Source of the DNA: Parabacteroides faecis
GTDB taxonomy: Bacteria > Bacteroidota > Bacteroidia > Bacteroidales > Tannerellaceae
Reading direction: 5' to 3'
NCBI RefSeq assembly: GCF_014647375.1
Contig: NZ_BMPB01000008.1
Span: 334,733-398,732, forward strand
Length of the DNA stretch: 64,000 nt
Below are positions 5,351-61,194 of the stretch, one piece after another. Numbering within the stretch: position 1 is the stretch's first letter; every line of letters starts with the position of its first letter. A model generated the notes under the pieces. It saw only the letters and a program-made list of their open reading frames with translations. It had not been told where the DNA came from and made no database searches. Both the position numbers and the translations under genes were made by a program.

Positions 5351-5433
5351 CAAAATGTCAACAATTTCCCCTTAAATAATGAATAAAAAAGTGAAGTCGC
5401 AGTGTTTCAGAAGGTATGAATTGTAAAAAGCTA

Positions 5434-5468
5434 ACAAAAAAAGGGTCCCGTTATCGGAACCCTTCCCC
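5434..5468 (-). terminator. Terminator of the thrS-infC-rpmI-rplT operon
   Basis: On the minus strand GGGTTCCG-ATAA-CGGGACCC forms an 8-bp stem followed by seven T, 20 bp past the rplT stop. It separates the ribosomal operon from the 6S-like RNA. Confidence 0.85.
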
Positions 5469-5489
5469 TATTGACATTTATATATCAAT

Positions 5490-5834
5490 TTACTTTACTT
5501 TCGCTACGATTGCTTTGAAAGCTTCCGGATGGTTCATTGCCAAGTCGGCCAACACTTTACGGTTGATCTCGATACCTGCAGCATGCAAAGCTCCCATCAA
5601 ACGAGAGTAAGACATACCTTCCAGACGAGCGGCAGCATTGATACGCTGGATCCACAATGCGCGGAAGTTACGTTTCTTGTTACGACGGTCACGGAATGCA
5701 TAAGTCAAACCTTTTTCCCAGGTATTTTTTGCTACGGTCCACACATTCTTACGTGCACCATAATAACCTCTGGTAAGTTTTAAAATCCGTTTTCTTTTTG
5801 CTCTTGAAGCAACATGATTTACTGATCTAGGCAT
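5490..5834 (-). CDS. rplT: 50S ribosomal protein L20
   Basis: A 114-residue L20, which binds 23S rRNA early in large-subunit assembly. It is basic and starts [11 protein letters not shown]. The conserved RGYYGARKN and [11 protein letters not shown] segments are present and the length is normal. It is last in thrS-infC-rpmI-rplT. In other bacteria L20 represses this operon through its mRNA; no such site was identified here. Confidence 0.98.
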
Positions 5835-5940
5835 AATTCTAATCTGTTTTGAATGTTAGCGTCATCCTTTATGATGATCTTACTTGCTAAATACATTCGG
5901 TTAATAAAAATCTTTGTAAAACTCGCTTAATTTAAGAAGA

Positions 5941-6138
5941 TTACTTCATGCCAAGCATTAGCTTAACACTTCTTACATCAACAGTAGCAACAAGGCCGGT
6001 ATGAGTAAGATTTCTCTTAGCTTTTTTAGTCTTCTTCGTCAAAATATGACTTTTAAAAGCGTGTTTTCTTTTGATCTTTCCTGTTCCGGTAAGGGCGAAC
6101 CTCTTTTTGGCACCGGAATTAGTCTTCATCTTAGGCAT
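5941..6138 (-). CDS. rpmI: 50S ribosomal protein L35
   Basis: The 65-residue L35, starting [14 protein letters not shown] at 6138. The frame stays open 11 codons further upstream, but MPKMKT is the standard family start. The Lys-rich middle ending in [12 protein letters not shown] is typical. It lies between infC and rplT, as is usual in bacteria. Confidence 0.97.
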
Positions 6139-6189
6139 TTTCCAATTTGTTTTAATTATTAAACTTGACACCCTCTAACGGGCGGTTTT

Positions 6190-6837
6190 TTATTCTTTGT
6201 TTCCCTCTGCGTCAGACTCTGTCCTCGGCTTCAAGGTTATAACTTTCTTAGCCACAGGCTTTGCAGGTCCGGCAGATGCAGCAGGTTTCGGAGTAGCAGT
6301 AGCAGCAGGTGCGCCTGCCTTTTTCGGTGTCAACATGATGATCATGCGTTTACCTTCCAATACCGGCAACTGTTCGACTTTACCGTAGTCTTCCAGGTCA
6401 TTAGCAAAACGAAGTAACAAAACTTCTCCCTGCTCTTTGAAAAGAATGGAACGTCCTTTAAAGAACACATATGCTTTAACCTTAGCTCCTTCTTCCAGAA
6501 ATCCTTTGGCATGTTTCAATTTAAAGTTATAATCATGATCATCAGTCTGAGGTCCGAAACGAATCTCCTTCACTACAACTTTAACTGACTTCGCTTTCTG
6601 CTCTTTCTGTCGTTTTTTCTGCTGATAGAGGAATTTCTGGTAATCGGTTACTCTACAAACGGGGGGCGCAGCATTGGGTGAAATCTCAACCAGGTCCAAT
6701 CCCATATCTTCAGCCATTTTTAAAGCTTGCGATGTCGGGTATACGCCCTGTTCTACATTGTCACCTACTAGACGAACTTCACGAACACGAATACGTTCGT
6801 TAATTCTATACTGTTCTTTCAGATTGTCATTCTTCAT
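6190..6837 (-). CDS. infC: Translation initiation factor IF-3
   Basis: A 215-residue IF-3, which binds the 30S subunit and controls start-codon and initiator-tRNA choice. The N-terminal domain holds [16 protein letters not shown] and the linker is Lys-rich (about residues 70-85). The C-terminal domain holds [18 protein letters not shown] tail of about 40 residues rich in Ala, Pro and Lys goes beyond the usual IF-3 end and is common in Bacteroidetes. The start here is ATG, unlike the rare AUU start of E. coli. The thrS stop lies 33 bp upstream. Confidence 0.97.
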
Positions 6838-58539: not shown

Positions 58540-59028
58540 ATGAAAGCAAGTGAAGTAAATAGCGAAATGATTGGGAAGCGGTGTAAATGTATCTTTACCG
58601 GACTGATGGTTGCAGGAACTATCGAGGAAATCAAAACAGAAGAATATACGGTGGAGGTTAAGGTAAGGTACGACGAACCACACCAATGGGGAAATCAAAT
58701 GTATGAAAACGGTTGGTCATTTGCCCGGATACATGATGATTTTGGCTCTCTCCGGCATCTTGAAATCATCGACGACGGATACCAAACTATCCGTGTCGTT
58801 TTCTCGGACAGCATTCGGGAGATAGACGGGAGATTTGCACAGGCTTACAAGAATTGGGGCGTGGTCAATCTGAAAGAGTGGATAGATAATTACGAAAGTT
58901 CCCGCTTTACGCAGATTGACGAGCATACTGCAATCATCACATCCGAATACAACATGGGACACATACAGGAATTGTTACAGAAAAATACGTCTGTAATCGT
59001 GTACGAAACCCTTTATTATCATGTATAA
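58540..59028 (+). CDS. Hypothetical transposon protein, 162 residues
   Basis: A soluble protein beginning MKASEVNSEMIGKRCKCIFTG. The first 60 residues look like a small beta-barrel (GKRCKCIFTGLMVAGTIEEI, YTVEVKVRYDEPHQWGN), resembling a Tudor/KOW-like fold only in outline. No family is recognised. It overlaps the next small gene by 8 bp. Confidence 0.65.
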   Translation: MKASEVNSEMIGKRCKCIFTGLMVAGTIEEIKTEEYTVEVKVRYDEPHQWGNQMYENGWSFARIHDDFGSLRHLEIIDDGYQTIRVVFSDSIREIDGRFAQAYKNWGVVNLKEWIDNYESSRFTQIDEHTAIITSEYNMGHIQELLQKNTSVIVYETLYYHV

Positions 59029-59173
59029 GCTATTCATCGGTTTTCGGAAACTCGGCGAGTTTCCCAGCATACGGAAAGCCAAACAGTACGCACAAGAGAG
59101 CAAACTATCTGACTTGTTCTCCCTCATCGGGGAGAATTACAGCGATAGTTGGTATGTTTCTTCTATCGGATAA
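59021..59173 (+). CDS. Small hypothetical protein, 50 residues
   Basis: ATG 59021 overlaps the preceding stop by 8 bp. It reads MYKLFIGFRKLGEFPSIRKA and ends WYVSSIG. It has coding-like composition and a coupled start, and is short enough to be missed by length cut-offs. Function unknown. Confidence 0.55.
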   Translation: MYKLFIGFRKLGEFPSIRKAKQYAQESKLSDLFSLIGENYSDSWYVSSIG

Positions 59174-59194
59174 GGACGGGCGGATTTTCCACCC

Positions 59195-59241
59195 GTTACT
59201 TTTTCCATGACTACCATAAACTTTTCGGGAGAAAAAGTAAC
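59195..59241. repeat. Inverted repeat at the left boundary of the cargo
   Basis: GTTACTTTTTC (59195-59205) and GAAAAAGTAAC (59231-59241) are perfect 11-bp inverted copies between the rightward small genes and the leftward DUF1848 gene. They may form a terminator for either side or mark an insertion edge. Confidence 0.55.
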
Positions 59242-59267
59242 AAAAAGCCTATTGGCCAAAAGGTTAT

Positions 59268-60194
59268 TTAAAATAAACTCTTTTTTCTTAGAGAAGCCAC
59301 TCTTCTTTCTTTTATCGTGTCTTTATCAGTAACATCTCCTATTAATAAAGGAGAAAGGGGATTGTGTCTTTTTGTCTTTTGCATTACCTGATCCTTATTG
59401 AAATTAGCATAACAATATAAACAGTTGTGACAGCAGGTATTGTATTCACCTATATCAATACTTTCGATACAGCCACATTCAGAACGCTGATTTTTGTCTT
59501 TTTTAGTTTCTAATTGATACCCAACAATGCCTTCAATAACGATATTGTCTATACATCTCCCATGTTTTATACCTATTGCTTTCAAATCAATCTTCTCAGC
59601 ACAAGTTTGAATTTCAATGTCGTAGGAAGATGCTATTTTTACTAAATCCTTTGACAAAAGGATTATTTCACTATCAGATAATTCTTTTGAACCTGTCCCA
59701 TCCAAATTTCGCTCTGTTTTTTTGTAGTTGTCAATGAAACTTATCGTGCATTTGTTTGTAAATGAAGAAAGCCTTTTTGCGATTTCTTCAAAGTACTGTA
59801 TGTGATAGTTAATATCTATTTTATGTGATAAGAGAATGGGATCATATCTCCATATTACCTTATTGCTGCCAATTTTGTCTGATAATTCTTTAAATGTATC
59901 AATGACATTGCTTTTCTTTGGAACATTTAACTCTAATGCTTTATCATAGGAGTTTATTGTGAATTGAAAATAATAGTTGTAATCACTTAATTCATTGAGC
60001 CTACTCAGCATTTTTTTTGGATTTTTCGTCCAAAAAACTATGCAATCTACAACATCTGGATTAATTTCAATTTTACTTATTTGGTGAATATTCATTGGAT
60101 TTCGCACATATATGTACCCTTCTTTTATTCTGTTATAGAACCAATCAGAATAAAATGCAGGAATGTCTGTACGACGACTAACGCTAAGTATCAT
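59268..60194 (-). CDS. DUF1848 protein with C-terminal cysteine cluster
   Basis: A 308-residue protein of the DUF1848 family, which is related to radical-SAM/SplB-like barrels. It opens ILSVSRRTDIPAFYSDWF and has IVFWTKNPKKM near 65 and VIWRYDPILLS near 112. The cysteines CGC-x14-CC-x2-C-x2-C near 245-265 end in CYANF and can bind an iron-sulfur cluster or zinc. The start overlaps the methyltransferase stop by 4 bp. The gene is AT-rich against the flanking transfer genes. The reaction is unknown. Confidence 0.8.
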   Translation of the reverse strand: MILSVSRRTDIPAFYSDWFYNRIKEGYIYVRNPMNIHQISKIEINPDVVDCIVFWTKNPKKMLSRLNELSDYNYYFQFTINSYDKALELNVPKKSNVIDTFKELSDKIGSNKVIWRYDPILLSHKIDINYHIQYFEEIAKRLSSFTNKCTISFIDNYKKTERNLDGTGSKELSDSEIILLSKDLVKIASSYDIEIQTCAEKIDLKAIGIKHGRCIDNIVIEGIVGYQLETKKDKNQRSECGCIESIDIGEYNTCCHNCLYCYANFNKDQVMQKTKRHNPLSPLLIGDVTDKDTIKERRVASLRKKSLF

Positions 60195-61096
60195 TGTTTA
60201 TCTGATTTCTTTATGACAACCAACTGAGCACTTGTACAAGATGTTTTTGTAGCATACATTGAAACAAGAAATCTTATCACAGCTTCTTTGAAAGGAGAAA
60301 AAATACCATTGTAAGAATACTCATACGCACGCATATCTTTTTTGTTTTTCTCATAATTAATGATAAAGCCTAAAGTTGCCTGGGAAATAATATTATTAGA
60401 ATTTGATTTACTTATTATCTCTTTGTAATAATTTCGCACATCATAATGGTTTATATCATTGATGATGATCATTGATCTTGGTGGCATTTTGTCTATAATA
60501 TGCTCTGTCATTTCTGATATGAAGGATGAAAGATCACCTCGCTTCAATATGTCAGATAGTAAATAATTTATAATTAATATATTAGGATATGTGTAATGAG
60601 GTGTTGATTTTAAATAATCAAAGCAATCCTGATTTATGATGTTAACATTATAAGGGAGAATATTTTTGACTTTATTTTGGACATCAGTCCAAATATCATT
60701 TGTGTCAAATCCATCATATGTAACATTCCCTGTGTAACCGATCTCTTTCAAGATTGAATCTACAGCAAATAATTCGGAACAGGGGCCGCAGCCTATGGAC
60801 ATTACATTCAAATCATTTATTCTTATTCCAGACTCATCTTTAAACCATCTTTTTAATACTCTAAAAAGATGTAATACCTCGCTTGAATACTGAAAAATAT
60901 ACCGACATACATAGCTATATGTACTACATACACAGTTAAATGTTCGGCTTCCATTTCCAAAAAACATATTCTGAAAACAAGAACTACAATTTGTAGAAGT
61001 ACATGAACCCTGTTCTTTATTTGGGCAATCTGAACATTGCCCTTGCTTTTTAGAATAGAGCGAATGAGAATATTGTACCAATTCGTTTATCGACAT
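60191..61096 (-). CDS. Cys-rich SAM-methyltransferase-like protein
   Basis: A 301-residue protein starting at ATG 61096, chosen because the promoter at 61122-61129 would start the mRNA between it and an earlier open part. Residues about 20-70 hold eight cysteines (CSDC, C-x5-C-x2-C, CVC, C), like a zinc or iron-sulfur module. A Rossmann-type methyltransferase domain follows, with MSIGCGPCSELFAVD (SAM loop) near 103, YDGFDTND and NQDCFDYL. It is coupled to the DUF1848 gene by a 4-bp overlap. AT-rich; own promoter. I do not recognise the pair. Confidence 0.7.
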   Translation of the reverse strand: MSINELVQYSHSLYSKKQGQCSDCPNKEQGSCTSTNCSSCFQNMFFGNGSRTFNCVCSTYSYVCRYIFQYSSEVLHLFRVLKRWFKDESGIRINDLNVMSIGCGPCSELFAVDSILKEIGYTGNVTYDGFDTNDIWTDVQNKVKNILPYNVNIINQDCFDYLKSTPHYTYPNILIINYLLSDILKRGDLSSFISEMTEHIIDKMPPRSMIIINDINHYDVRNYYKEIISKSNSNNIISQATLGFIINYEKNKKDMRAYEYSYNGIFSPFKEAVIRFLVSMYATKTSCTSAQLVVIKKSDKQ

Positions 61097-61121
61097 ATCA
61101 ATCAATGCTAATTGTTCTCTG

Positions 61122-61129
61122 CAAAAATA
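61122..61129 (-). promoter_or_regulatory. -7 element of the methyltransferase-DUF1848 pair
   Basis: TATTTTTG on the minus strand, 26 bp before ATG 61096 and just after the terminator of the preceding gene. Confidence 0.55.
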
Positions 61130-61133
61130 CCCA

Positions 61134-61170
61134 TAAAAAAACACCTGACAAAGTGAATGTCAGATGTTTT
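61134..61170 (-). terminator. Terminator insulating the cargo pair
   Basis: ACACCTGACA (61141-61150) pairs with TGTCAGATGT (61158-61167); on the minus strand six or more T follow. It ends the transfer transcript just before the cargo promoter. Confidence 0.8.
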
Positions 61171-61194
61171 TCAATGAGTTACACATATTCGGAT

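Follow-up and report, generated by a model that had tools for sequence, protein, structure and literature searches.

A methyltransferase-DUF1848 gene pair on a conjugative element of Parabacteroides faecis: a candidate mobile nucleic-acid modification module

Introduction

Two overlapping genes are carried by a conjugative element in a stretch of 64,000 nucleotides of Parabacteroides faecis (contig NZ_BMPB01000008.1, positions 334,733 to 398,732; here called the window). They encode a Cys-rich methyltransferase-fold protein (MT) and a protein of the DUF1848 family. Both families are known as labels, and the system and its function are undescribed in the literature searched, in which no paper mentioned DUF1848 and none named C3a159, the PADLOC label that MT matches. 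The preliminary description of this DNA, made from the sequence alone, had suggested that the pair may be a modification or phage-defence module not yet described; as an undescribed two-gene module it stood. We propose, with a probability of about 40%, that the pair is a two-enzyme module for nucleic-acid modification, self-contained and mobile, which travels as cargo of the phage-defence type and in which DUF1848 would be AlkB-like without needing oxygen.

Several described systems and families come close to this pair. The PADLOC label RTasDUF1848 denotes DUF1848 found with defence reverse transcriptases (DRT). The window protein belongs to the same family (E = 4.8e-50), but its partner is MT; we rejected a DRT identity, as no reverse transcriptase was seen in the eight neighbour proteins scanned or, by eye, among the other open reading frames (ORFs) of 55-64 kb. 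On cyanobacterial plasmids such as pSYSA, a homologous MT adjoins a base-processing enzyme. There, however, the partner is the dioxygenase AlkB, which is not radical-SAM-like (SAM, S-adenosylmethionine), and the MTs lack the N-terminal Cys cluster. The three-Cys-motif pair TcmP/DUF5131 joins, as we take it, a methyltransferase-like protein to a Cys-motif partner, and presumably its families differ from those of the window pair. Radical-SAM enzymes such as spore photoproduct lyase have the barrel and the CX3CX2C motif in common with DUF1848, in which, unlike in those enzymes, the cluster motif is C-terminal. C3a159 ('methyl transferase'), which the window MT matches, is a label only; we assume that C3a stands for type III CRISPR-associated.

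Results

MT and DUF1848 form a two-gene unit

The pair is laid out as follows.

60191..61096, minus strand: MT gene, ATG start, 301 aa, Cys-rich class I methyltransferase-fold protein
59268..60194, minus strand: DUF1848 gene, 308 aa, predicted radical-SAM-like barrel with a C-terminal CX3CX2C motif
60191..60194, minus strand: 4-bp ATGA overlap of the MT and DUF1848 genes, from the ORF coordinates

The mechanical ORF list puts the MT start at a GTG at 61144; we used the ATG at 61096. The overlap, already reported in the preliminary description, suggests translational coupling.

Searches baited with MT gave L003, G296 and L012, plus 14 genome-contig loci (L and G numbers are our handles for loci and genomes). 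Same or near-identical contigs were counted once (L010 with L014; L016 with L017), and L003 and L023 were each counted despite near-identical DUF1848 proteins. DUF1848 was the next same-strand gene in all 15 further distinct MT loci, which came from Bacteroidota, Clostridia and one Desulfobacter, plus two host-less records of the phage or viral collections. Homologues that rarely occur together had been named as evidence against the pair; the opposite was found. The gap between the genes was -4 to +16 nt where the MT frame was unbroken (taken from ORF coordinates in L016/L017 and L022); L014 and L026 have a broken MT gene and L027 a partial one. The identity matrices of the two proteins correlated (13 loci, r = 0.74, permutation p = 0.0002). 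In a tree, the 15 paired DUF1848s and one solo copy clustered, and four from other contexts were separate (100/100). MT and DUF1848 thus form a real two-gene unit.

MT is rare: beyond the window genome, one clear match (G296) was found in 296 (phylum), 124 (family) and 345 (phylum) genomes, with weak or stop-ridden matches in G174, G299 and G308 left out. The plasmid collection gave no MT and the phage collection one record, L003. The viral-contig scan found nothing with one MT protein and L012 with an MT alignment; a first MT scan of the genome contigs found no relative.

The recurring neighbours of the pair were response regulators, kinases, ABC transporters and, recognised by eye, relaxases. 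No third gene or small ORF (at least 30 aa, within 4 kb) recurred as a pair member across the loci, and no precursor-like ORF was present inside the operon. Radical SAM enzymes and methyltransferases are a common toolkit for ribosomally synthesized and post-translationally modified peptides, and the pairing seen here would suit peptide maturation; the lack of a recurring third gene or small ORF disfavours that explanation, which we consider very improbable.

The predicted methyltransferase

Eight Cys lie in residues 1-64 of MT (C21, C24, C32, C37, C40, C55, C57 and C64), followed by the SAM loop SIGCGP, in which GCG at 102-104 was invariant in 13 aligned sequences; both traits had been read correctly in the preliminary description. 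The structural model matched 244 PDB chains at a Foldseek E of 0.001 or less. On this model, MT is a class I methyltransferase-fold protein with putative methyl transfer activity. Its best Pfam match was weak (Methyltransf_34, E = 0.0087, under the family cut-off), and PADLOC C3a159 matched the MTs of the window (1.7e-10), L012 (7.3e-17) and L003 (1.5e-17). When the MT profile was compared with PDB sequences, a DOT1L entry appeared at E = 0.14, and pentatricopeptide chains were dismissed as artefacts, with no stretch passing alone.

Structure comparison of the model showed a METTL17/Rsm22-like fold, the chains being so named by the PDB entry titles and PMC9892005. METTL17 has four C-terminal cluster Cys (C333, C339, C347, C404), whereas those of the window MT are N-terminal, with one Cys (C287) beyond residue 158. 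We did not place MT in METTL17/Rsm22 (PF09243): the likeness is in fold only, and an hhalign comparison with one bacterial Rsm22 lent it no support. A search of PDB sequences with bacterial Rsm22 did not reach METTL17.

The fold bears on a different explanation, that MT and DUF1848 act as writer and elaborator and hypermodify host tRNA or rRNA, shielding it from RNA-damaging enzymes encoded by phages or rivals, with no erasing. It is also favoured by L012, where MT (5380-6810) is fused to an N-terminal RnlA-like region (29.9 bits; cut-offs 27 for the domain alone and 26 for the whole protein) and lies downstream of a TPR-cold-shock gene. In L038, DUF1848 is directly next to a Methyltransf_30 gene, which we take to be MnmC2-like. 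The kinship of MT with Rsm22 lacks sequence support, however, and hypermodification leaves unexplained both AlkB in the partner position and DUF1848 beside ada (see below). We hold it to be a rather unlikely alternative.

DUF1848 as a radical-SAM-like protein

The second protein matched PF08902 at E = 6.3e-109 (364.2 bits against a cut-off of 30.5; positions 1-262 of 262) and no other Pfam family at E = 1, hence no 2-oxoglutarate/Fe(II) dioxygenase domain (PF13532). The likeness to AlkB is one of proposed role, not of kinship. The C-terminal Cys cluster of the preliminary description is the motif C254-X3-C258-X2-C261, within NTCCHNCLYCYAN, and its three Cys were invariant in 14 aligned sequences.

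The relation to radical-SAM-like barrels claimed there was supported by the model, which matches a barrel of this type: residues 1-199 align in structure with 134-341 of spore photoproduct lyase, and 1-197 with 71-245 of pyruvate formate-lyase (PFL) activase. Both regions, we assume, come after the cluster Cys of those enzymes. In DUF1848 the motif lies at 254-261 and not N-terminal to the barrel as in radical SAM enzymes. A CX3CX2C motif at the C-terminus of a radical-SAM-like barrel fits a circular permutation, and on the model DUF1848 would be a circularly permuted radical-SAM-like protein with putative SAM cleavage. The DUF1848 profile reached a best E of 0.012 against PDB sequences.

A radical-SAM-like protein in a defence-type slot recalls viperin. 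DUF1848 might produce an altered nucleotide toxic to phage polymerases, which MT would tune or protect, and the DUF1848 of L012 weakly matched PADLOC pVip (E = 0.065). That match spans residues 249-270 only, which is the cluster motif, and AlkB in the place of the partner is left unexplained. Moreover, viperin is not known to depend on an obligate methyltransferase. This explanation appears improbable.

AlkB and ada in the same contexts

On a Planktothrix plasmid, the MT relative next to DUF1848 also adjoins AlkB. Distant MT relatives adjoined AlkB in nine of nine opened loci (L011, L101 and L151-L157), about five lineages by similarity; the AlkB of L157 is unannotated and split over two frames. 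Eight of the 11 matched plasmid records were opened, the others (H20, H21, H23) being further Synechocystis plasmids. The AlkB-adjacent MTs came from Planktothrix, Synechocystis and Picosynechococcus plasmids, together with a G012 protein. Four inspected AlkBs keep HxD and RxxxxxR and are of two types (28% identity over 143 residues).

With a profile of five AlkB-adjacent MTs, the E-value was 1.8e-10 for the window MT and no worse than 0.006 for any of the 13 Cys-rich MTs, whereas 12 control methyltransferases had E-values of 28 or worse or went unreported. Of five Cys-poor MTs, however, this profile missed four (E 2.3 to 160). Conversely, a Cys-rich MT profile placed five of six AlkB-adjacent MTs above the best control and L011 (E = 0.12) below it; the L011 MT is tied to the family by its C3a159 match (1.2e-11). 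The Planktothrix MT was searched in viral contigs, and none was confirmed.

In L011 (5655-9873), a 2CompART/2CompARG protein, a methyltransferase and AlkB stand in one run, with SMC-type-like genes near, as judged by eye.

DUF1848 also occurred beside ada. On one strand of L084 (3905-6942), ada-alkA-ogt is followed by DUF1848, and in L139 the ada and DUF1848 genes overlap by 4 bp. The best solved relatives of these neighbours were Ada (3.7e-20 and 5.5e-23), 3-methyladenine glycosylase II (4.7e-42) and O6-alkylguanine methyltransferase (1.6e-31). This linkage was present in two of the 60 DUF1848 loci examined, with weaker Ada- or Ogt-like matches (L119, L150) uncounted. In E. coli, alkB lies downstream of ada.

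AlkB (PF13532) was absent from 150 of 150 genomes of the family of G644. The window genome also lacked it, as did all but one of the 13 paired genomes, a Flavobacteriales metagenome-assembled genome. AlkB requires oxygen, so its absence is to be expected in anaerobes and is at most consistent with replacement by DUF1848.

A variable cargo slot

The pair occupies a variable slot of the conjugative element and is mobile, as the preliminary description had suggested.

59191..61194, no strand: slot in the conjugative element whose cargo varies, from comparison with related loci

The slot flank (58540-59190) was matched in 11 of 123 family genomes, the window's own counted. We read 13 other flank sites; both flanks were present in 11, from nine genomes, and L063 and L070, with a single flank, were excluded. 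The cargo was Thoeris in L064 (6743-8741; two ThsB and one ThsA), CBASS in L068 (4696-6668; a cyclase and a TIR-STING effector) and an AbiC-like gene in L074. L062 held a metallo-beta-lactamase-fold gene and L065 a DUF4116 protein. L066, L067, L069, L071, L072 and L073 had small or unknown cargo or none that was clear, L069 and L073 sharing one small gene. Recognised anti-phage cargo thus filled three of 11 slots, a count without a control slot for comparison. Elsewhere, a type IIG restriction enzyme lies near the L024 pair and an RmrA homologue adjoins the L021 pair; relaxases and recombinases, recognised by eye, lie near several pairs.

The slot also bears on whether the pair serves in defence at all. 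DUF1848 might repair damaged bases in plain alkylation or stress repair, MT assisting (for example as a damage sensor), with the slot a general one and no role against phage. DUF1848 beside ada would agree with this, as would the protein-ADP-ribose hydrolase and Sir2-family deacetylase genes that lie beside DUF1848 on one strand of a Roseburia plasmid (L100:3322-5942). The patchy, mobile distribution of MT, Thoeris and CBASS in the equivalent slot, and the neighbours of the L024 and L021 pairs argue against it. We regard repair without a phage role as unlikely.

DUF1848 without MT

DUF1848 was encoded in 110 of 250 genomes of the family of G644 (Lachnospiraceae according to the L020 label) and in four of 198 genomes of the window's class. 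Among the best 30 DUF1848 loci by score in the family of G644, four had MT upstream (L114, L135, L138 and L121), L114 being the already known L020 pair. Nine of 25 viral-contig DUF1848 loci had an MT-profile match upstream. These are not all independent: L076-L078 look like one locus, L082 and L083 have a common pair and L081 is L012; the L075 match is a fragment with an intervening ORF, and L079 starts at the contig edge. Four of six plasmid records with DUF1848 matches were opened and, of eight records from the phage collection, L003 alone.

Two of these results weigh against a strict reading of the module suggested in the preliminary description. DUF1848 on its own occurs widely, in most cases with no MT beside it, and is thus not tied to this partner. 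With DUF1848 alone so common, it is the pair that stands out. A Cys-poor branch of MT (L076, L085, L121, L135, L138) is also paired with DUF1848, likewise against the strict reading; the Cys cluster, while present in the paired Cys-rich MTs, is then a trait of a subfamily and not of the pair. Eight of the 11 slots held no recognised defence gene, which favours the plain repair described above.

In L076 (5084-6936; also L077 and L078), the Cys-poor MT and DUF1848 lie on a viral contig with phage tail-like genes adjoining (by eye), and the pair may thus also be phage-borne.

Further DUF1848 contexts were seen. The window genome has a second DUF1848 (L035, G000:C5:346320-347258 onward), after which comes a protein of 1725 aa that combines a methyltransferase-like N-terminus and a DpdF-like helicase (PADLOC 1.5e-72); a third DUF1848 copy (L034) is solo. 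Five same-strand genes in L036 (6476-12453) encode an MT-like protein (borderline, E = 0.01), an SF1 helicase, proteins of 695 and 273 aa, and DUF1848; possibly this is a larger system of a kind resembling the MT-DUF1848 pair.

Signals and flanks of the pair

Three further features border the genes.

61122..61152, minus strand: promoter match TTTG-N19-TATTTTTG, Bacteroides-type, from a pattern count in the window
61134..61172, minus strand: intrinsic-terminator-like hairpin at the boundary of the tra genes and the pair, from folding against shuffles
59195..59241, no strand: inverted repeat GTTACTTTTTC/GAAAAAGTAAC where the pair meets the converging DUF7258 operon, from sequence reading

The AT-richness and the setting apart by a terminator that had been described were both confirmed. 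GC content is 29-33% in the pair and 41-49% outside (500-base windows). The hairpin folds at -17.8 kcal/mol (z = -7.0); the terminator listing gives it on the plus strand, and from its T run on the minus strand we took it to divide the tra genes from the pair. For the claimed promoter, a match to TTTG-N19-TATTTTTG, which we take to be the Bacteroides consensus, is present at 61152-61122, but it is weak on its own since the pattern has five matches in the window against 1.3 expected. The inverted repeat folds no better than shuffles (z = -0.95) and is a possible terminator common to the pair and the DUF7258 operon. By Pfam, the flanks are TraO, TraQ, M23 and bPH on one side, and PcfJ and DUF7258/DUF6956 on the other.

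Discussion

In the module that we propose, MT would bind SAM and act on nucleic acid, most likely methylating a base, or else would recognise a mark. DUF1848 would process an alkylated base without oxygen, the job that AlkB does with oxygen. The two would then be writer and eraser (or elaborator), travelling on a mobile element as defence-type cargo. We infer SAM use, the nucleic-acid substrate, the chemistry and the action against phage from the folds and contexts above. The L012 fusion with its RnlA-like region and the METTL17-like fold hint at an RNA substrate, and the ada neighbour points to DNA.

A bolder form of the proposal is doubtful. DUF1848 could be, as a radical-SAM enzyme whose barrel is permuted, the oxygen-independent counterpart of AlkB that removes N-alkyl groups from the bases of nucleic acids, and MT-DUF1848 a mobile phage defence of anaerobes, toxin-and-antidote-like or mark-and-erase, of which MT-AlkB would be the aerobic form.

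To our knowledge, the reversal of N-alkyl base lesions in strict anaerobes, without the oxygen-dependent AlkB, is an open question. It becomes directly testable through a radical-SAM-like family that occurs beside ada and, next to related MTs, where AlkB otherwise stands. An AlkB-like role would also assign a function to DUF1848. The slot of related conjugative elements could be mined for further systems. Should the pair prove to act against phage, one more undescribed defence system would be added, for which the cyanobacterial MT-AlkB pairs offer a ready comparison.
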